DNA from: an uncultured bacterium
GTDB lineage: Bacteria; Cyanobacteriota; Vampirovibrionia; Gastranaerophilales; Gastranaerophilaceae
Length of the DNA: 58,698 bases
Reading direction: 5' to 3'
NCBI GenBank assembly: GCA_902796305.1
Contig: CADBOJ010000002.1
Location: 1 to 58,698, forward strand
Shown here: positions 7,274 through 57,149 of the stretch, one piece after another
Numbering within the stretch: position 1 is the stretch's first letter
Layout of the letters: each line of letters opens with the position of its first letter
The notes under the pieces: generated by a model
What the model was told of the DNA's origin: nothing
What the model saw: the letters and a program-made list of their open reading frames with translations, nothing else
Databases searched by the model: none
Position numbers and translations under genes: made by a program

Positions 7274-8284
7274 CTAATTTTCTTTATCGTTTTTTTCCGT
7301 AAGATAATTTATAAATTGAGCTTGAATATCCGTAATTATTGAAAAAACAAAAAATATAAAAGGCAATGATACAATCAGTAATACTAAAGACAATATAAAC
7401 AATAACAAATCTTCTCCGTATATAAAACCGGAAATTCCGCTTAATGTAACGGGGTTTAACTCTTTAACAAGATTAAAAACAGAATCAAAAACAATAACAA
7501 GGCATACAAATATAATATTGAACAATATTGAGAAGCCGACATATTTAAAATATCCGGCAGGAGATTCGGATATAATTTTTAAAATACGCTTAAATTTAAA
7601 AAATGAGCTGAAATTCAAATCAAGAATATAAGGGATTATTGCAGCAGAAAGATATAGAAACATAATAAACGCAATAATACCGACAATTACATACACCGCC
7701 AGCGAACGTAATTGAGTAAAAAACCATACTAAATCAGGAGTATCTGCTGATAGCTTATCAAAATAAATGTAAACTGATTTACAGGCAAGAATTGACACTA
7801 TCAGAGCCGGAACGGAATTAATTACGCAACCCAGTATTGCAAAAAAACCTTTCTTAAAGCAATTGGAAAAATTCCTTACCGCAATTAGGTTTTCTTTCTT
7901 ATATAAAATTCTGTTGTGAGCATTAAAAATAAAAAATCCGACAGGAAAAGCAAGAACCAACATTGCAAGTATAATAATACCCGAAGCTAGCAATTTATGA
8001 AATTCAAATCCGTAACACATAAGCTGACATATATCAAAGCCTATTAAAAACGGTGCAACAACAGGAAAACCAACAAAGGAATATAAATTTTTCGGAGTAA
8101 AATTCAATAAAGAAAGGGATACTCTTTCTTCAATACCGTCAAAATACATATAAGAAGTAAAGTAGCTTCTTATAATTCCTAAAAACAGGTACAGCAATAA
8201 AAATGAACAAACAACAGTCATTTTTTTGCAGAAATTTTTTTGACCGAAAATATATGTTAACGCCGATTCAAGGTTAAATTTCAT
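7274..8284 (-). CDS. Polytopic membrane protein of unknown function
   Basis: A 336-aa integral membrane protein with about six hydrophobic segments (near 20-45, 65-85, 85-110, 145-168, 190-225, 250-275 and 290-320). A weak resemblance to DUF4013-type proteins (short N-terminal amphipathic region, then paired helices) is an impression only. No catalytic motif is visible. GGAG precedes ATG 8284. The gene is co-oriented with hydCBA and 89 nt upstream of it, so it might be read into the operon, but a functional link is not evident. Confidence 0.7.
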   Translation of the reverse strand: MKFNLESALTYIFGQKNFCKKMTVVCSFLLLYLFLGIIRSYFTSYMYFDGIEERVSLSLLNFTPKNLYSFVGFPVVAPFLIGFDICQLMCYGFEFHKLLASGIIILAMLVLAFPVGFFIFNAHNRILYKKENLIAVRNFSNCFKKGFFAILGCVINSVPALIVSILACKSVYIYFDKLSADTPDLVWFFTQLRSLAVYVIVGIIAFIMFLYLSAAIIPYILDLNFSSFFKFKRILKIISESPAGYFKYVGFSILFNIIFVCLVIVFDSVFNLVKELNPVTLSGISGFIYGEDLLLFILSLVLLIVSLPFIFFVFSIITDIQAQFINYLTEKNDKEN

Positions 8285-8433
8285 TACAAAACTCCAAAAT
8301 TCTATCCGAAATTACTATAACATAATATGAAGTTATGAAAAAAAATGTTAAAAATTTTAATAAACAGAAAAAATCTAGAAAAGTATAATTTACTACGGTT
8401 AAAATCGGCAATGAAATAAATTAAATAATCCCT

Positions 8434-8439
8434 GATAAT
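8434..8439 (+). promoter_or_regulatory. -10 element of a predicted leaderless promoter
   Basis: GATAAT ends 6 nt before ATG 8446 (spacer GTATTT), and no Shine-Dalgarno lies in between. Transcription would start at or next to the A of the ATG. The same exact spacing recurs at many genes in this window. Confidence 0.5.
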
Positions 8440-8445
8440 GTATTT

Positions 8446-8835
8446 ATGCATAATTCAACTTGGTATAACGGTTTAACAAAACCTCCATTTTCACCGCCTG
8501 ATTGGTTGTTTGCACCGGTATGGAGTGTTTTATATTTCCTAATTGCATTATCGCTCATTATTTATTCGGTCAAAAAAACAAATTTAAACAAAGTTAAAGG
8601 ATATGTATGTTTTGGGTTGCAAATTATATTGAATTTCCTGTGGATTCCTGCCTTTTTTGCACTCAAAAATATAACACTTGCGCTTATTATTGTGATTTTG
8701 CTTAATATTTTTATCATAATGACCGTAAGGTATTTTTTCGCTGTTTCAAAGGTTGCTTCACTGTTGCTTGTTCCATATTTAATCTGGACATTATTTGCAA
8801 CATATTTGAATTTCAGTTATTTGATTTTAAATTAA
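8446..8835 (+). CDS. tspO: TspO/MBR family protein (tryptophan-rich sensory protein)
   Basis: A 129-aa membrane protein with the family's N-terminal signature WYNGLTKPPFSPPDWLF.PVW and four or five transmembrane helices. TspO/MBR proteins bind tetrapyrroles and cholesterol-like ligands and are tied to stress and porphyrin handling. The protein is shorter than the usual 150-160 aa because it starts just ahead of the first motif. Some C-terminal tryptophans are retained (LIWTLFATYLNF). Monocistronic, with a predicted leaderless start. Confidence 0.88.
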   Translation: MHNSTWYNGLTKPPFSPPDWLFAPVWSVLYFLIALSLIIYSVKKTNLNKVKGYVCFGLQIILNFLWIPAFFALKNITLALIIVILLNIFIIMTVRYFFAVSKVASLLLVPYLIWTLFATYLNFSYLILN

Positions 8836-8836
8836 A

Positions 8837-8868
8837 AATTCCGCCCGACAAACCTGCCGAGCGGAATT
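8837..8868. terminator. Bidirectional hairpin terminator
   Basis: AATTCCGC pairs with GCGGAATT, and an inner CG pair is possible. T-rich flanking sequence on the minus strand suits the gene ending at 8886; the plus side serves the TspO gene. Confidence 0.7.
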
Positions 8869-8885
8869 AATATGTTTTTATTAAA

Positions 8886-9248
8886 CTAGTTTAATTTAAC
8901 GCATCTTCCCAGTTTATAGAATGTTTTAGCCGATTCCATTTGAGTTCTTGAAACTTCTCTGTCGCATAAAACATACAAACCGGTATCCAAATCTTTAACT
9001 TTACACCATCTTTGTTTTTCTACCCAGCAATTATAAACATCTCCATATCCTTCAGCATTAAAATATGCTTTTTTAATTTGTTTATATTCAGGGTCTTTAA
9101 TTATATCATTTGATTTTTTCTTTTTGCTAACACCTGTTACTGATGAAACATTAACATAATTGGAATTTTTGTCACCATGATTAGCTAATGCCGGAATCGA
9201 ACTTAAAATCAATGTACTTAATGCAAATAATACAAATGTCTTTTTCAT
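8886..9248 (-). CDS. Secreted hypothetical protein
   Basis: A 120-aa protein with a clear Sec signal peptide (MKKTFVLFALSTLILSSIPALA, cleavage after ALA near residue 22). The mature part is basic near KKKKS, then carries four cysteines (NCW, WCK, LCD, RCV) that could form two disulfides. TAGGAG precedes the ATG. No known domain recognised. Likely periplasmic. Confidence 0.7.
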   Translation of the reverse strand: MKKTFVLFALSTLILSSIPALANHGDKNSNYVNVSSVTGVSKKKKSNDIIKDPEYKQIKKAYFNAEGYGDVYNCWVEKQRWCKVKDLDTGLYVLCDREVSRTQMESAKTFYKLGRCVKLN

Positions 9249-45740: not shown

Positions 45741-46538
45741 CTACAGATAGAATATTGATGCAAATATAAAATCCCAGATAGCTATTGCAAGAAATGACCA
45801 TACAACAGCTTTAGTGGTAGCAATCCCGACCTCTTTAGCACCGCCCGTTGTGTAATATCCGCAGGAACAACTGATAAGAGCTATAGTTCCTCCAAATACC
45901 GATGCCTTTAAAATTGCTATCGAAATATCTCTAATATATAATCCGTGCCACAAAGATGTTACATAATTTAAAAGACTTAAATCAGCCGTCCAGTTAGAAA
46001 CATAACCGGCACAAACCAATCCGAACGCAGCCGAAATTATAAATATGACAGGCATAAACAAAACTCCCGCCAAAAATCTCGGAATAATTAAATATTCAAC
46101 AGGATTTACTTTTAATACTTTCATTGCGTTAATCTGTTCTGTTACCGCCATTGAAGCAATTTCGGAAGCAAATGATGAACCTACCATTGATATAATTGCA
46201 AACCCACTCATAACAACAGCCAGTTCTCTTATCATAACCAAAGCAGACAGAGTTCCGGTATAATCACCCCCGCCCTGCTTAGCCAATTCAGGTGCGAGCT
46301 GCATTGCAATAATTGTCGAAGTCATGCCGACAATTGCAAGACTAATCGGTAAACTGTCATATGCAAATCTTTTAGATTGAATTACAACTTCGCTATATTT
46401 GATTTTTAGTTTTAAAAGACCTGAAATGACTTCCGAAAAAACCTTTCCGGCTCCTCCAAGTGTAAACAAAAACTCCGTCAACTGTTCTTTTAAAATCAAA
46501 AAGAGATTAAAAGTTATTGTCTTATTGAATTCAATCAT
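45741..46538 (-). CDS. mlaE: Mla-type ABC transporter permease
   Basis: A 265-aa permease of the MlaE/YrbE family, with five or so transmembrane segments and the conserved SSFASEIASMAVTEQINAMKVLKVNPVEYLIIPRFLA segment near 125-160. First gene of the operon; predicted leaderless start with TAAAAT 6 nt upstream. Confidence 0.94.
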   Translation of the reverse strand: MIEFNKTITFNLFLILKEQLTEFLFTLGGAGKVFSEVISGLLKLKIKYSEVVIQSKRFAYDSLPISLAIVGMTSTIIAMQLAPELAKQGGGDYTGTLSALVMIRELAVVMSGFAIISMVGSSFASEIASMAVTEQINAMKVLKVNPVEYLIIPRFLAGVLFMPVIFIISAAFGLVCAGYVSNWTADLSLLNYVTSLWHGLYIRDISIAILKASVFGGTIALISCSCGYYTTGGAKEVGIATTKAVVWSFLAIAIWDFIFASIFYL

Positions 46539-46544
46539 ATCTAT

Positions 46545-46550
46545 ATTTTA
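46545..46550 (-). promoter_or_regulatory. -10 of a predicted leaderless promoter (mlaE operon)
   Basis: TAAAAT, six bases ATAGAT, then ATG 46538 on the minus strand. Confidence 0.45.
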
Positions 46551-46897
46551 TACGAAAAATGTTTTTTTTAAAATTATGTAATAATTTAAAACAAAATAAA
46601 CAACTGTTTAAGCTATAACTTTAAAACGAACAAAACTTTTGAATAACAATATTTTAAAACTTTTAAAATGTCAGATTGTATTTTTGGAAAACATAGAAAA
46701 TGATAGGAATTTGAAAATATATTATTTTATATTTTTATAGCAAAGCAGACATTGAAAATAATCGAGATATTTCTCGTACTATATATTGTGCGGATTTTTA
46801 GAGGGCAAAAGCGAAGCGATTGCGCCCCGAACGGACACATTAAAAAAGGATGTAATTTAACATACAGAACAAGATGTAATTAACTATGAGATGGAGA
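46551..46897. other. Non-coding boundary region of the accessory island
   Basis: No convincing gene. It holds an AT-rich part, a small dyad CGAGA-TATT-TCTCG (46763-46776), a short GC-rich patch (about 46801-46839, GGGC..GCCC can pair) unlike its surroundings, and a direct repeat GATGTAATT (near 46849 and 46871). These could mark the left end of inserted DNA, but I see no match to the tRNA-Lys 3' end. Confidence 0.4.
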
Positions 46898-47302
46898 TTA
46901 CGATTTTGTTAATTCAATAACGGCATTTAAAACACTGTCACTTCTCCAACCTACCTTTGTTGTCGCATTTCTTGTCACATAAATTGCTTCGCGTTCTTGT
47001 CCGTTTGGAGTTACTGCAACAATTGGTTTTTCTGCTTTAACAGCAGTATCTATCTCAAATTGCATCCATTTACTATGATAAATTCTCATAGAGGTCGGAA
47101 CAATAAAAACAGAACATCTTTTTATACGCTCTGCTATTTTTTCTTCAAGCTCCTTATCGCTTAGCTCTTCAAGTCTTTTTTCTACAGTAATGCTATAATC
47201 TGAAAATTTATAATATGGTGCATTTTCTAGCCATTCTTTAATTTTATCATATTCATTGCTGTACCAGCGGTGCGATATAAAAATATTTCTTGTATTAGAC
47301 AT
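46898..47302 (-). CDS. ThsB-like TIR domain protein (MTH538/DUF1863 type)
   Basis: A 134-aa single-domain protein. IFISHRWYSNEYDKIKEWL at the N terminus and SKWMQFEIDTAVKAEKPIVAVTP near 85-105 match the MTH538-type TIR family that includes Thoeris ThsB; the Glu in FEID is at the position of the family's catalytic glutamate. The C terminus (VGWRSDSVLNAVIEL) also matches. ThsB senses infection and makes a cyclic nucleotide-type signal from NAD. The start lies 8 nt inside the upstream gene, with GGAGG, so the two are cotranslated. No ThsA is present. Confidence 0.8.
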   Translation of the reverse strand: MSNTRNIFISHRWYSNEYDKIKEWLENAPYYKFSDYSITVEKRLEELSDKELEEKIAERIKRCSVFIVPTSMRIYHSKWMQFEIDTAVKAEKPIVAVTPNGQEREAIYVTRNATTKVGWRSDSVLNAVIELTKS

Positions 47303-48659
47303 TAGATACCTCCTTTATTTCTAGCTTATTTTTAAACTTTTCATACCAATCCGTACGCTCGTCATTATTTTCATATATATTTTTTATAACTAATAGGTTT
47401 TTGAGGGTTGTTTCTTTTTTCCAATCTGGAATTTTATTTTGTATATTAAGCATACATAAATCATTGATAATTTTATCTAACTCACTATAATTTTTAAGCA
47501 GTACCGAAGCTTCAAATAATGTCGCAAAATGCCAATAATCACAAGTGTTTAATATTTTCAAGTCGTATTTAACAACAGCCAGCACATCTTGCATATCGAT
47601 TAATAAATTTTTATTACTAGTTAAAAAATATTTTTCAAATAACAAAGTAGCAAGATTAATACCAGGATAATAATCCGTGATATCCGAATCAAATCCCTTT
47701 TGGTAATTGGCTATAGATAGATCTAAATAGTACTGTCTTGTGATGTTGTTGGACTCGTCTTTATACATAGTTTTATATATGCTACCTAATAGGCTATAGG
47801 TTTCTGATGATTCTCCATATTCTTGCAATAATTTTGCCAAAATGTTTATTGCCTTTTGTTTATCGTCACTTCCTCCTCTTTTGTTATACGCAATTGATAG
47901 CTGTTGCATATAATAAACAGAATTATTAATATCTTCTTTTGTTTCGTTACTTAAAAAATCTATTATCTTGCTCCATGCTTTCATTTCTTTAAGTTTTTCA
48001 ACTATATAGTATGCTAGAATTTTTAAAGACAAATCCGATTTTTTGATTTTTTCTATACAGGTTTCTATTTCTTGTGTATCAGAACAATTACTTAATTTAT
48101 CTTTCATTTCCTCGTAAAAAAGTTGTTTTTTCGCATAAATTTTTAATTTTTTTTCATCTAGTTTTGTTACTGGAAAATTATCAATTAACTCAAAAGCTGG
48201 ACTATCTTTTATATTTTTTGATATTTTTATATCGTTTAATCTTTGTTTTAACTTATCTTTTAATGCTTCTGCGTTTTCATTTGATATAACACCTTTGTTT
48301 AATTTGTATGGAATTGCCCTTTCAAAAGCAAAATCAAAAGGCAGTTTTGAATCTTGATCAAATATAATTATAGTGTGGGATTCCCTTGCGCAGTGCCTGA
48401 AACCTAATTCATAACACACGTTTGCATTTTGGTTGCTTACATCAACAATTGCAATGTTTGCACAAACTAACCGTTCAAACATTAAGGAATGTATGATTCC
48501 GCCAGTGATTTCTTCGTCTGCACGAATTACTTTTAAGCCCACTTCTTCGCAAGCTGGTTTAATGGCCTTATAATATATTGAATCAAAATCGATTTTGACT
48601 TTTTTATTTTTATATGAAGCCTGAGTTCCAAATGGCATTATTGCAAATATTTTATTCAT
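47295..48659 (-). CDS. Nucleotide-hydrolase/TIR-like domain fused to TPR-like helical repeats
   Basis: A 454-aa protein. The N-terminal 130 residues (FAIMPFG..FDSIYYKAIKPACEEVGLKVIRADEE, then IAIVDVSNQNANVCYELGFRHC) form a flavodoxin-like domain of the nucleoside-deoxyribosyltransferase/TIR-like group seen in defence and signalling proteins; the NxNVCYELG glutamate is a candidate catalytic residue. The rest is alpha-helical repeats of TPR type, resembling the MAP3K 'TRAFs-binding' (DUF4071) architecture. AAGGA precedes ATG 48659. It overlaps the ThsB-like gene by 8 nt, so I infer a sensor-effector pair. The assignment of which protein signals and which acts is open. Confidence 0.7.
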   Translation of the reverse strand: MNKIFAIMPFGTQASYKNKKVKIDFDSIYYKAIKPACEEVGLKVIRADEEITGGIIHSLMFERLVCANIAIVDVSNQNANVCYELGFRHCARESHTIIIFDQDSKLPFDFAFERAIPYKLNKGVISNENAEALKDKLKQRLNDIKISKNIKDSPAFELIDNFPVTKLDEKKLKIYAKKQLFYEEMKDKLSNCSDTQEIETCIEKIKKSDLSLKILAYYIVEKLKEMKAWSKIIDFLSNETKEDINNSVYYMQQLSIAYNKRGGSDDKQKAINILAKLLQEYGESSETYSLLGSIYKTMYKDESNNITRQYYLDLSIANYQKGFDSDITDYYPGINLATLLFEKYFLTSNKNLLIDMQDVLAVVKYDLKILNTCDYWHFATLFEASVLLKNYSELDKIINDLCMLNIQNKIPDWKKETTLKNLLVIKNIYENNDERTDWYEKFKNKLEIKEVSNV

Positions 48660-48686
48660 TTTTTCCTTATTTGCTAAAATTGAAAT

Positions 48687-48721
48687 ATTAGAATTCTACA
48701 TTTCGAAAGCTAAATTCTAAT
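48687..48721. promoter_or_regulatory. Operator-like inverted repeat upstream of the TIR operon
   Basis: ATTAGAATT (48687-48695) and AATTCTAAT (48713-48721) are perfect inverted copies with a 17-nt spacer that itself centres on TTTCGAAA. It lies 27 nt before the start of the operon, where a repressor would block transcription. Confidence 0.5.
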
Positions 48722-48840
48722 TTGATAATCTAACATGAGTTAATTATAGTATTGAAAATCCGGATTGAATTTAAATTTAACAAAAAATTAATTTTTTGTT
48801 CCTAAAAAGCAATATTTTGTGGTAGTTTATATAAAATCAG

Positions 48841-49618
48841 TTAGACTTTATTTAGCACGCTCACAACAATCTGTTTCATAATATCCATTTCTTCCGGTTT
48901 GCTTTCGGCAATAAGCAGGGTCAAAGCGAAAAGAGTTCCGTTATCAATAATTGGAATATCGTTTCTATAAAGCATATTATTTTTATCTAAGAAATAAAGA
49001 AAACAACTTGCTGCAATACGTTTGTTGCCGTCTGAAAAAGAATGATTTTTTGTAATCAAATATAAAAGCATCGCTGCTTTTTCTTCTAACGTCGGATAGC
49101 AATCCTTACCGTCATAGGTTTGATATATTTGATTTATGGAGCTTGCAAAACTTTTATCTTTTGGAATTGCAAATACATCTGTTGCAAATTAGCGATTTTT
49201 GTTTGTTGTACTGATAACAATTTATTATTTAAAGCATAACCTTGTGTTATATATTTTTTCAAAACATCTGTTGCCCAAATACGAAATTATGTAGCTCTTG
49301 TAGAATTTACCCTATATCCAACAGAAATTATTGCATCAAGATTATAAAATTGTGTCGTGGATTTTTGAGTCTTTCCCTTGATAGCACCATGTTTTATGGT
49401 TGTTTCCAAAATGGAAATAACCACCTCTTCTTTTAGCTCTCCTTCGTTAAAAATATTTTTTAGATGTTTGCTTATAGCAGGAGTTTTTACGCCAAAAAGC
49501 TCCGCCATTTGCTTTTGAGTCAGCCAAATGGTTTCATTTTCAAGCTTGGTATCAAGCGATACGGATCCATCTTCGCTTGTATAAATTACAATTTCGCCTT
49601 TTTAATATCTTTTTCTAT
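48841..49618 (-). pseudogene. RhuM-Fic/Doc family protein, decayed
   Basis: Reading down the minus strand, a RhuM N-terminal part (IYTSEDGSVSLDTKLENETIWL, KQMAELFGVKTPAISKHL) and a Fic/Doc C-terminal part (YPTLEEKAAMLLYLITKNHSFSDGNKRIAA) are recognisable, but in pieces. The ATG is ATA (49618) behind AAGGA; one G is missing in AAAAAGGCGAA (about 49597), shifting the frame; NSTRAT is followed by TAA (49289-49287) where the family has Gln; and near 49190 the frame changes and the middle domain is absent. The Fic motif HSFSDGNKR is itself intact. In full-length relatives these parts form one protein of about 330 aa. Confidence 0.85.
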
Positions 49619-49684
49619 AATTTAAATCCTTGCGAATGTTACAGATTAAAATTGACAATATATTAAACACGCGCTTTATATTCC

Positions 49685-50656
49685 CTATACCTGCCCTAAT
49701 GCTTCCTTTAAAAGCATTTTATAAGTATCTTTTAATTCTTTTGGTTCAAGGATTTTGACGTGTTTACCCCAGCGGAATAAAAACCAGCAGATTTCATAAG
49801 CTCCGCCTGCGGTAAATTCTACCGTCGTTGTGCCGTCATCATTAAAGGTTAGTTTCTGATTCGGGTGGAAACTATAATTTTCAACCGCTTCTTTGACTTC
49901 TTTTGAAAATAATAGTTTTACATTCATCGGCACTAAGTCTTGATAAGCACCAAAGGATTTTGCTAAATGCTCCTTTAAGTCAAAGTTTTCATCTTTTTCA
50001 AAATATTCATCAATTACTCTAACATCTTTCATTTTGTACAAATGAAAATGTTTCGGGAATTTGTCCTCATCGCCTTTAGCTACAAGATAAGTGTATTCGC
50101 TATAAATTATTGCGTAGGGTGCAACACGCCTTGTTTTTTCTTCGCCTTTTTTATTTTTATAGTTAAAAGTAAGGTATTTTTGCGCAAGCATTGCATAAGA
50201 TATTTTTTCTAAAACCTCTTTATCTAGTTTAATTTTGGGAGCTTGATGAACGGCATATCCTTGAAGCTCTAAAAGAGCGTCAACATCATTTTGAATAGCG
50301 TTTGAAGTTGTAAATTTCATTTTTTTAATTATTTCAGGTAACAAGTCGCACCCATTAGTGCAATTTTGGGTTTTCATATAATTTTGACAGTTTTCTAGCG
50401 TTGCTATTTCATCAGCCGAAAAAGCGGTAATTCTATCAAGCGTTCCTCTTTTTAAGCGCCATTTTTTAATTCTTGAATTGGGGTTAAACACTTCCTCCGT
50501 TTCAAAAATATCCGTTATAATTTCCTTTATTCTTGTTGCGGTTCTTCTTGAAACACCACATTCTTCTTCAATCATTTGAATAGAATACCCCTGGTAAGAA
50601 TCTCTCATATTTTTTGCAAGATTAAGTATCTGCCTTATATCATCACCGCGCGCCAT
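49685..50656 (-). CDS. HTH-WYL transcriptional regulator
   Basis: A 323-aa protein. Residues about 20-45 (YSIQMIEEECGVSRRTATRIKEI) form a helix-turn-helix; residues about 145-215 form the WYL domain (FNYKNKKGEEKTRRVAPYAIIYSEYTYLVAKG), a ligand sensor, followed by the C-terminal WCX region. WYL regulators such as BrxR and CapW repress phage-defence genes, so control of the neighbouring TIR operon is plausible but unproven. The Shine-Dalgarno AAAAAGGAGAG is strong. Confidence 0.9.
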   Translation of the reverse strand: MARGDDIRQILNLAKNMRDSYQGYSIQMIEEECGVSRRTATRIKEIITDIFETEEVFNPNSRIKKWRLKRGTLDRITAFSADEIATLENCQNYMKTQNCTNGCDLLPEIIKKMKFTTSNAIQNDVDALLELQGYAVHQAPKIKLDKEVLEKISYAMLAQKYLTFNYKNKKGEEKTRRVAPYAIIYSEYTYLVAKGDEDKFPKHFHLYKMKDVRVIDEYFEKDENFDLKEHLAKSFGAYQDLVPMNVKLLFSKEVKEAVENYSFHPNQKLTFNDDGTTTVEFTAGGAYEICWFLFRWGKHVKILEPKELKDTYKMLLKEALGQV

Positions 50657-50677
50657 AACTCTCTCCTTTTTTAGAAA

Positions 50678-50715
50678 ATTATATCATTTCAAAATCATTA
50701 TGTCCATATATGACA
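50678..50715 (-). promoter_or_regulatory. WYL gene promoter with overlapping dyad
   Basis: Minus strand TGGACA, 17-nt spacer, TATAAT (50683-50678). The -35 lies inside the dyad TGTC-CATATATG-ACA (50701-50715), as expected for an autoregulated gene. Confidence 0.55.
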
Positions 50716-50752
50716 CAGTAGCATTTTAAAATAAAAGAAAAAGGATAAAATT

Positions 50753-50845
50753 ATGTTTTTAGAATTACTTATTGGTTATTGGGCGCTAAAGCCTGTCGCA
50801 GAAGAAATCAACAGATTCAGCTATGAACAAGAACTAATACATTAA
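50753..50845 (+). CDS. Possible 30-aa peptide
   Basis: ATG 50753 has AAAAGGATA 7 nt upstream and reads MFLELLIGYWALKPVAEE... to TAA 50845. It has a short hydrophobic N terminus and is divergent from the WYL gene. Too short to judge coding by itself. Confidence 0.3.
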   Translation: MFLELLIGYWALKPVAEEINRFSYEQELIH

Positions 50846-51203
50846 TGTCTCTGTTTCGCAGAAACATCAAGTCCTAAATCTCATATAAAGAGACATTTTG
50901 ACACATATCAAACTAAAAGATAAATTATTTTTTGTACAATGTTGCACTTATTTGCACTCGCTAAAAATCAAATACAAAGCGGGATAGACCCTGAAACAAG
51001 TTCAGCATGACTGAATATTAGCGCAAAATAGTGCAAAATAGTGCAAAAATCAGGATAAAAGTGCAAGAATAGTCCGGCAAATCTCTACACTATAAATCTG
51101 CCTCTTTCGCCCTAAAATTAGGCAAACTTACGATAAAACTCCCATTGCAACTGTCCTGAAAACCTATAAAGGACTTCCTGTTACGGAAATCCTTTATAAA
51201 CTT
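50846..51203. other. Non-coding gap between the island and tRNA-Lys
   Basis: No convincing gene. It contains the phased short repeats described separately, then an ordinary AT-rich stretch up to the 3' end of the tRNA. Confidence 0.6.
50942..51066. repeat. Helically phased short repeats (TTGCACT/AGTGCAA and CTGAA/TTCAG)
   Basis: TTGCACT occurs at 50942 and 50952; its complement AGTGCAA at 51030, 51040 and 51060, with a variant AGCGCAA at 51020. Between them CTGAA, TTCAG and CTGAA start at 50991, 51001 and 51011. Almost all steps are multiples of 10 nt, one helical turn, so bound proteins would line up on one face. Such arrays occur as arm-type sites of tyrosine recombinases or as replication iterons. 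Confidence 0.6.
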
Positions 51204-51276
<73 letters not shown>

Positions 51277-51326
51277 AAACTACTCAATATAATATTAAAA
51301 ACTATTTAAAATTTCAACCATGAAAT

Positions 51327-51362
51327 TAAAAAAGAGACTGAATATTTATCAGTCTCTTTTTT
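51327..51362. terminator. Strong hairpin terminator
   Basis: AAAAAAGAGACTGA pairs with TCAGTCTCTTTTTT around a 7-nt loop. It ends the minus-strand gene at 51395. Confidence 0.9.
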
Positions 51363-51394
51363 GGATAAACTGCTTAGTAAAAGAAAATATTCTT

Positions 51395-51757
51395 TTATGA
51401 ACTGAAAGACATTAATGCTTTAACAGAGCGGGCAGTGTCTTGAACTTCCTTTTCGCTGTGCATATTGATTGTATCATCAAGAATTTTAATTGCTTCCTGT
51501 TTATCTTTTAGAGCAAGCAATTCATTTATTGCACACATTGCAACTCTTGCAGATAAATCATTTATGCCTTTACCTTTGTTTACAATCATGATTTCGAGTG
51601 CATCATGAGTATTTTTTCTGATTAAAGCTTTGCTTGTTAATTCTCTTATTTCATCAATCGGACAATTGGTTCCGAGTTCATTTAATACATGAATTGATTC
51701 GCTATCGTTGTGTTTTCCGAGTGCTTCAATAATATTTTTTACTCTTCTATTGTTCAT
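51395..51757 (-). CDS. HEAT-like repeat hypothetical protein
   Basis: A 120-aa all-helical protein; the spacing of helices (VKNIIEALGKHNDSESIHVLNEL, LTSKALIRKNTHDALEIMIV, VAMCAINELLALKDKQEAIKIL) looks like three short HEAT-type repeats. It overlaps the upstream gene by 11 nt, with AAGGAG inside that gene. Function unknown. Confidence 0.65.
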   Translation of the reverse strand: MNNRRVKNIIEALGKHNDSESIHVLNELGTNCPIDEIRELTSKALIRKNTHDALEIMIVNKGKGINDLSARVAMCAINELLALKDKQEAIKILDDTINMHSEKEVQDTARSVKALMSFSS

Positions 51758-55429: not shown

Positions 55430-55508
55430 TATTTGCGTTTTTTCGCTAAAGAATTTTCCGATGTGTGTCGTGAATTTAAAAGTAACAGTAATAAAGGGGT
55501 GGCAAAAG

Positions 55509-57149
55509 GTGTTTACTAAATTTAATTTGAGCGAAAAAGGACTTGACGTCCAAAATCCCGCCATGCTTAATATTGGTGACGGAAAAACCGTTCAAGCCAA
55601 TTCGGGCGGTAACATCAAAAATTACATCACCACAAGCGAAGAAAGTTATCTCGGAGGAATACAGTTTGATGAAAACGAAAATCATTCCTTTGTAATTCCT
55701 AAAGATGCCGAAATTCCGCAAGGGTATTCAAGATATGAATACAAAGGCGCAACGCTTGATGTATACAGAATTAAAAACGACTACAACAGTCAACTGGTTC
55801 ATCCGAAAAATTTTGATTGGGATGATTTTAACAAATCAGTTTCTACTTGGAATTTAAAACCCTCAATAAAAACAAACGGGGTGAAAAAACTCGGCGGTGA
55901 TACCGGAGGAAGTTCAAATCTGAACATCAACGGAAAAATTGACAGCGAAGTTACCCAAGGGAATACAGGGGACTGCTGGCTGATTGCAGCACTTTATTCC
56001 ATGAGTTCAACGGAAGAGGGCAAACAAATAATCAAAGATGCCATAACGGTAAATTCCGACAATAGTGTAACGGTAACTTTTGCAGGACTCGGTGTAAGTT
56101 ACACAATAACGAGAGAACAGCTTCAAGCATATAATACCGATAATAATTTAAGCGACTCGTATTCAAACGGAGCGGAAGACGATGTTCTTGCAATGGAAAT
56201 TGCAACAGAATTGTTAATGGAAGATATTCAAACCGGAAGAGTACAGGTTAATTCAAAAAATCCTCTGTTAACACAGTTTGCTATGGCAGGCGGTATAGGT
56301 GACGGCGGGTTGCCCGACCAGCTTGTATATTATCTCACCGGTGTTGATTCACAAGAATATTATAATGAAGATATGAGCCCTCTCGGCGAAAATCAGGTAC
56401 TTCAAATTTTAAATGAAGCCTATAAATCAGGAAATCGTTGTTTGAGTTTTGGCGTGTACGGCAACGGACACAGTGCAAAATTAACAAACGGAGAAACATT
56501 CAGGCTTGATATAGGAGCAGGAGGACATGCTCTTGCAATAACAGATATTACAAAAGATACGGTTACTTTTGTAAATCCATGGAATACAAGCATAAAATAT
56601 ACGATGACCTGGAAAGAATTTGCAAAACTCAATATAGGATTTATGAGTTCATCAAATTTAAGCACTACAAAAAAAGCAGACAATATAGTTGATATGACTG
56701 ACGGAAGAACTGTAAATCCAAACAGAAGAAGCAACGGTGACAATTCCGGAAGAGTATCTCCGTCCGATAATTCAGGCGGAGGTTCGGGCGGTACTGTTGC
56801 CGGTGGTGGCGGAAATTCGGTTTCAGGCGGAAGCGGAACAAACGGTGCTTCTCCTAAAGACAATAAAGGTTCGGCAGAAGAAACCGACGGTACGGGAAAA
56901 GCCAAAGACTCTGCAGTTGATAATGACAAACAAACCGATACCGTTACCGAAACAGACACCGGCACAGAAGTTCCTGCGGAAAATAAACGGGATAATACAA
57001 GTACTAACGGTAGCTCAACAGCGGATAACAGCAATAATCAATCAAATGACAAACCGCAAAATAATACAAAAAATGCAATTAAATCATTCATAGGTAAAGT
57101 TGTTGATACTGTTTATAATGTTGTAAAAAAAGTGATAGATGCACTTTAA
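55509..57149 (+). CDS. Calpain-like (C2 family) cysteine protease
   Basis: A 546-aa protein. Residues about 145-385 form a calpain-type papain fold: QGNTGDCWLIAAL (catalytic Cys near 156), GGHALAITD (His near 340) and VNPWN (Asn near 356). The N-terminal 140 residues precede it; the C-terminal 150 are Ser/Gly/Thr/Asp low complexity and end in a hydrophobic helix. GTG 55509 is chosen because AAAGGGG lies 9 nt upstream; an ATG at 55461 has no ribosome site. No signal peptide. Calpain-like proteases are uncommon in bacteria. Confidence 0.85.
   Translation: MFTKFNLSEKGLDVQNPAMLNIGDGKTVQANSGGNIKNYITTSEESYLGGIQFDENENHSFVIPKDAEIPQGYSRYEYKGATLDVYRIKNDYNSQLVHPKNFDWDDFNKSVSTWNLKPSIKTNGVKKLGGDTGGSSNLNINGKIDSEVTQGNTGDCWLIAALYSMSSTEEGKQIIKDAITVNSDNSVTVTFAGLGVSYTITREQLQAYNTDNNLSDSYSNGAEDDVLAMEIATELLMEDIQTGRVQVNSKNPLLTQFAMAGGIGDGGLPDQLVYYLTGVDSQEYYNEDMSPLGENQVLQILNEAYKSGNRCLSFGVYGNGHSAKLTNGETFRLDIGAGGHALAITDITKDTVTFVNPWNTSIKYTMTWKEFAKLNIGFMSSSNLSTTKKADNIVDMTDGRTVNPNRRSNGDNSGRVSPSDNSGGGSGGTVAGGGGNSVSGGSGTNGASPKDNKGSAEETDGTGKAKDSAVDNDKQTDTVTETDTGTEVPAENKRDNTSTNGSSTADNSNNQSNDKPQNNTKNAIKSFIGKVVDTVYNVVKKVIDAL

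Follow-up and report, generated by a model that had tools for sequence, protein, structure and literature searches.

The phased 7-mers (TTGCACT, or AGTGCAA on the opposite strand) beside the tRNA-Lys gene of the 58,698-nucleotide stretch of DNA analysed here (the window) very probably make up part of the right end (RE) of a Mu/Tn7-type DDE transposon that is non-autonomous, occupies positions 46851-51168, is flanked by a 5-bp duplication and sits in the tRNA-Lys terminator (Table 1). The initial annotation had located all of these copies correctly, including the variant at 51020, and had their distances from the tRNA 3' end right. Its proposal that the remnant of an integrated element carrying TIR, Fic and WYL genes lies on the 3' side of the tRNA also stands, but the class of recombinase does not: the 7-mers had been taken for arm-type sites of a tyrosine recombinase, and they are fixed parts of a transposon end whose family encodes a DDE operon and generates a 5-bp duplication.

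Table 1. Features of the element, its cargo and its target in the window.
Feature	Position	Strand	Details
Element	46851-51168		4318 bp; LE starts TGTAATTTAACATACAGAACAAG, RE finishes ...TGTCCTGAAAACCTATA
Target-site duplication, left copy (AAGGA)	46846..46850		same letters as 51169-51173
Left end (LE), TGTAATTTAACATACAGAACAAGATGTAATTAACTATGAGATGGAGAT	46851..46898	+	
ThsB-type TIR-domain protein, cargo	46898..47302	-	PF08937 ThsB_TIR 5e-15; PADLOC ThsB 4e-15
TPR-S / MAP3K_TRAF_bd effector-like protein, cargo	47295..48659	-	PF13281 3e-26; PF20308 TPR-S 5e-19
Broken RhuM/Fic (Fic-DOC) gene, cargo	48841..49508	-	PF02661 and PF13310 fragments; in-frame stops
WYL-domain transcription regulator, cargo	49685..50656	-	PF13280 3e-10; PF25583 WCX 2e-14
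Deletion junction in leader of missing A	50835..50840		42 alignments stop at 50835-50839
RE module, ~330 nt	50835..51168	-	homologous to 52 distinct REs
TTGCACT	50942..50948	+	RE nt 221; AGTGCAA read from RE; nt 221/222 in 36/52 REs
TTGCACT	50952..50958	+	RE nt 211; nt 211/212 in 27/52 REs
Dispersed palindromic repeat around CCTGAAACAAGTTCAG (50990-51005)	50983..51011		between both 7-mer clusters; source of CTGAA/TTCAG copies
AGCGCAA variant	51020..51026	+	RE nt 143
AGTGCAA	51030..51036	+	RE nt 133; 19/52 REs
AGTGCAA	51040..51046	+	RE nt 123; 43/52 REs
AGTGCAA	51060..51066	+	RE nt 103; 45/52 REs
RE tip, inward TATAGGTTTTCAGGACAGTT	51149..51168	-	conservation stops sharply there in all REs
Target-site duplication, right copy (AAGGA)	51169..51173		
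tRNA-Lys terminator hairpin, cut off from T-tract by insertion	51169..51198	-	
Target gene tRNA-Lys (CTT)	51203..51277	-	ARAGORN; Rfam RF00005 71 bits

Both ends of the element were delimited by comparison with its relatives. The RE alignment has a sharp edge at 5'-TATAGGTTTTCAGGACA, which corresponds to window position 51168 read inward. The LE was recognised from abutting tandem copies, in which ...GTATGTTAAATTACA stands immediately outside the RE of loci L158 and L175; the complement of this sequence, TGTAATTTAACATAC, is present at window position 46851. Across the family, the sequence after the initial TG of the LE is conserved and the flanks are variable, and the LE pattern was found in 69 of 288 family genomes, representing 21 of 41 genera, with no matches to a reversed control pattern. 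No inverted copy of the RE tip is present at the far end of the element, where the LE is a different sequence. From 60 fetched LE regions and the window we recovered 14 two-ended elements with sizes of 1.3-19 kb, and identical 5-bp flanks were present in ten of them; shuffled pairings of the same ends yielded a mean of 0.7 exact duplications and a maximum of 6. The four pairs without matching duplications are perhaps ends of nested or tandem copies that were wrongly paired. Stacked REs and LE-RE junctions were observed at eight loci (L138, L145, L158, L175, L183, L188, L191 and L194), tandem arrays of this kind being built by repeated insertion at the same tRNA. The LE starts with TG, and 5'-TG is the canonical terminus of such transposons; the RE tip departs from it, starting with 5'-TA in nearly all copies, which is a point against the transposon assignment. 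The LE pattern had no exact match in viral contigs, and so there is no sign of a phage form among them.

The insertion point lies in the terminator of tRNA-Lys(CTT), 35 nt beyond the 3' end of the tRNA, which was the sole match in an Rfam scan. Among the genomes searched, G005 is the closest as judged by MlaE; its terminator is unbroken (contig C20, 5948-5993, ...AAAAAAGGATTTCC...), and the window flanks, when joined, read ..TTAAAAAAGGACTTCCTGTTACGGAAATCCTTT.. versus ..AATAAAAAAGGATTTCCTGTTAGAGAAATCCTTT.. in G005. This genome is an imperfect empty site, as its contig ends inside tRNA-Lys and its left neighbourhood differs. The comparison of tRNA-Lys loci suggested in the initial annotation yielded no clean empty site: across the genus the neighbourhoods are rearranged, and G005 is alone in sharing the MlaE side and the terminator. 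At this G005 locus (L094, 5980-6069) tRNA-Lys stops after ten-odd nucleotides at the contig end, through either a chimeric end or another insertion.

Placement next to a tRNA or tmRNA is common across the family. A tRNA or tmRNA 3' end lies 34-127 nt outside the RE and faces it in 36 of 49 testable REs, with none in the reversed orientation, and only 0.3% of random points in the same loci pass this placement test. The targets of these 36 REs are tRNAs of 10 kinds and, in four cases, tmRNA. No intact tRNA or tmRNA accompanies the remaining 13 REs, several of which adjoin the LE of another element or a tRNA fragment. At L159, L164, L185 and L208, the flank beyond the RE terminates like the 3' end of a tmRNA, in GGTTCGACTCCCACCGTCTCC or something close to it.

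A genus-wide search with window positions 50850-51400 as the query revealed that the RE module (query positions 1-320) is separable from tRNA-Lys. The module occurs at other loci in G004, G018, G012, G002, G005 and G014, where it invariably adjoins the 3' side of a tRNA (Leu, Ala, Met, Ser or Lys), and in most cases it stands directly upstream of an operon of four genes, A-B-C-D. Synteny of the repeats in all relatives, which the initial annotation named as the refuting observation, is thus not seen: the module of relatives stands beside a variety of tRNA genes. In genome contigs, 80 loci were retrieved, mostly from Gastranaerophilales or uncultured gut bacteria and most with the same arrangement. 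The A proteins of relatives contain rve and Mu-transpos_C (1.8e-14) domains and conserved residues D189, D256 and E302, identifying them as MuA-type DDE transposases; the match to the phrog_310 transposase (8e-85) covers A residues 6-563 and begins at phrog position 100, so that about 100 N-terminal residues are lacking. B is an AAA+ ATPase of the MuB/TnsC type (phrog_296, 2e-38; TniB, 1.6e-6; VchTnsC, 2e-5), and D has a TerS-like helix-turn-helix (HTH). C is about 167-184 aa long with a conserved 48-residue N-terminus. A structure model (mean pLDDT 87) predicts a winged helix at residues 1-52 and a lambda-integrase-type core-binding domain at 64-167, with Z scores of 14.5 to 2kd1 and 12.8 to lambda Int (1z19); a catalytic recombinase domain is absent from C. 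Cousin operons encode an A that is about 46-57% identical and has an extra N-terminal HTH. In one of them (L319, 8728-10371), the cousin of C has a full recombinase domain (PF00589) in which the expected arginine motifs look altered by eye (STGASIPEL, VQHNF), recalling TnsF and suggestive of a TnsF-like intermediate. A reverse-transcriptase-like ORF, judged from translation only, lies between A and the RE module at L043 (G003, 7648-9075). A literature search on Gastranaerophilales transposons, tRNA-targeting Mu-like elements and Melainabacteria with Tn7, covering sources other than subscription journals and preprints, returned no description of this tRNA/tmRNA-homing Gastranaerophilales family, which is apparently new to the literature.

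These data bear directly on the idea that the window holds the remnant of a tyrosine-recombinase genomic island with the 7-mers as integrase arm-type sites. Short phased repeats beside a tRNA 3' end fit that idea, as does the integrase-like core-binding domain in the C proteins of relatives, yet we consider it very improbable. The duplication is only 5 bp; the far side carries no copy of the tRNA 3' end, since 45801-47300 contains no 10-mer from the 3' half of the tRNA and the AAGGA duplication is found there instead; the operon of the family encodes a DDE transposase and an ATPase; and insertion occurs beside a wide variety of unrelated tRNA and tmRNA genes. Beside the same repeats, where the initial annotation suggested looking for integrase genes, most relatives carry A-B-C-D, with a C that has no catalytic domain. 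The initial annotation was right that the recombinase gene is missing from the element: there is no integrase among the window ORFs, and gene A was found neither in the window nor elsewhere in the host assembly, which is 92% complete. The copy in the window, which is without A-D, is non-autonomous, and it would be movable only with a transposase from elsewhere.

Within the transposon RE, the 7-mers occupy fixed distances from the tip even though much of the intervening sequence is variable. Read from the tip across the 52 REs, TTGCACT recurs at nt 103, 123 and 133 and AGTGCAA at 211/212 and 221/222, with a further AGTGCAA at 201/202 in 14 of them; one cluster is inverted relative to the other, giving a rough mirror symmetry about nt 165. 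The arrangement is not a product of chance composition, as TAGTGCAAAATAGTGCAAAA with up to three mismatches occurs twice in the window, both times in the 7-mer cluster (0.03 expected), and three 7-mer pairs are spaced by 10 or 20 nt, compared with none in 200 Markov-1 simulations of the window. The CTGAA/TTCAG copies exist as reported in the initial annotation, but they do not belong to the same 10-nt series. They are part of the palindromic repeat around CCTGAAACAAGTTCAG, which is scattered through many related genomes; its presence at the same RE spot in some sister elements and absence from others places its 10-nt spacing outside the 7-mer series, and the third CTGAA, at 51011, looks fortuitous. 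In two cousin loci (L317 and L319), other short repeats with 10-11-nt steps replace AGTGCAA upstream of A (TAAAACA four times and GGAACCA three times), which suggests that the binding sites changed together with their protein.

Fixed distances from the tip, retention without A-D, absence from the LE and the repeats of the cousins all favour a reading of the 7-mers as protein-binding sites. Most likely they would be bound by an element-encoded protein in an operator/enhancer-like manner, as in phage Mu, which has an operator/enhancer; the winged helix of C is a candidate for the binder. A narrower role, in which the element is as described and the 7-mers are solely the operator of the A-D promoter with no part in transposition, is possible if rather doubtful. 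In most autonomous copies the 7-mers do occupy the region 100-240 nt upstream of A, they are absent at the LE, and one RE tip (G005, contig C89), at which no second end was found, retains the outer ~95 nt without the clusters. However, their distance from the tip is fixed, and their exact positions are kept in three duplication-flanked elements that have no intact A-D operon (the window, L306 and L307). That the 7-mers are instead an array of end-binding sites for transposase A, like TnsB or MuA sites, seems unlikely. Their location within ~230 nt of one end, helical phasing and inverted arrangement would suit such an array, but MuA or TnsB binding sites are roughly 22 bp, more than the 10- and 20-nt spacings allow; the outermost site is 103 nt from the tip; and the LE has no AGTGCAA sites, which sets the clusters apart from ordinary paired end-binding sites. 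Finally, the WYL gene is the nearest gene to the 7-mers in the window, and they could in principle be operators of this regulator or of tRNA-Lys with no mobile element involved. This can hardly be credited, because the sites of relatives lie beside A and many different tRNAs with no WYL neighbour, and the cluster is unique in the genome, occurring once in the 1.89-Mb host assembly. The WYL operator was rejected as the sites travel with the element rather than with WYL.

The window copy has lost its operon and kept its cargo. The deletion junction is where homology to the autonomous elements ends; in relatives, the A start codon comes next. The RhuM/Fic gene lacks ~215 nt near 49185 relative to copies in L315, L296/L154 and L285, and relatives of the WYL regulator with 35% identity are found in the family loci L185, L186 and L281. 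The TIR gene overlaps the TPR-S gene, and the same pair (50% and 40% identity) occurs in L183, which holds another family copy. The pair is possibly an uncharacterised two-gene TIR defence system; it does not qualify as Thoeris, as there was no match to a ThsA partner and the neighbour of the TIR gene encodes the TPR-S protein. The cargo types of the window recur in sister loci; type I and type IIG restriction systems, LmuB (Lamassu), AbiEii (AbiE), IetS and OLD/Gabija-like genes are found in other elements of the family. Elsewhere in the window (55461-57149), an ORF has a calpain-like cysteine protease motif (TQGNTGDCWLIAAL), recognised by eye only.

We propose the following mechanism for the transposon. 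By homology, A would cut and join the element ends and B would hand over the target. The element would enter tRNA or tmRNA genes from the 3' side in a single orientation, with C the best candidate for recognising the tRNA gene; the roles of C and D and the protein-DNA contacts are predictions. The two inverted 7-mer clusters, with their steps of one helical turn, would most likely be bound along one face of the DNA by a protein that the element encodes, serving as operator and transposition enhancer of the A-D operon. The window copy has lost A-D and is left with only its defence-type cargo. A more general reading is quite possible, although we stop short of calling it probable: a site-specific branch of Mu transposases may home to the 3' side of nearly any tRNA gene and to tmRNA, relying on a winged-helix/core-binding protein instead of TniQ/TnsD or a guide RNA and on the phased 7-mer clusters as enhancer, and may disseminate defence islands among the members of an order of gut bacteria. 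Together, these data supply exact ends, a target rule, a duplication and a gene set for a family of Mu-type transposons that home to tRNA and tmRNA genes and carry defence systems around the Gastranaerophilales. In this uncultured lineage, the element explains the presence of a defence island, and its sharp end sequences can be used to find further transposase-less defence islands.

The family combines features of several known systems. With Mu and Mu-like phages (for example, Bacillus phage BalMu-1 and Fusobacterium phage phiRTG5) it shares an A similar to phrog_310 over nearly its full length, a B similar to phrog_296, the 5-bp duplication, an LE that begins with TG and a D that resembles TerS and DNA-binding phage proteins; the best annotated phage relatives are 26-29% identical. 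Unlike these phages, it has an A without the ~100 N-terminal residues of phrog_310 and an RE tip that starts with TA, and none of the ORFs scanned in eight duplication-flanked elements was an obvious virion gene. Phage Mu inserts nearly at random, whereas members of this family target tRNA/tmRNA 3' ends and insert there in a single orientation. Tn7-like elements, including CRISPR-associated ones downstream of tRNA genes, differ in that a Pfam and NCBIfam scan of A-D found no TnsA, TniQ/TnsD, TnsE or Cas domains, and in that the family targets many tRNA isoacceptors and tmRNA. Without TnsA and TniQ/TnsD in the A-D scan, the family is not Tn7-like in the strict sense; a whole-genome TniQ search was uninformative, as its control was silent as well. 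TnsF, described for the DDE transposon Tn6022 and for Tsy, has one or more tyrosine-recombinase core-binding domains and no working catalytic centre. It is an experimentally demonstrated target selector of about 500 aa, contains zinc fingers, acts together with TniQ and directs insertion to comM (PMC10293859). The candidate selector C differs from TnsF in its size of about 167-184 aa, its combination of a winged helix with one core-binding domain and the lack of a detected TniQ. Like TnsF, C is encoded in a DDE transposon operon and has a core-binding domain without a catalytic centre. A compact model for the conversion of a random transposase into a site-specific one, parallel to TnsF in Tn6022, would be offered by a MuA/MuB machine whose tRNA specificity is general and whose candidate selector is 167 aa long.
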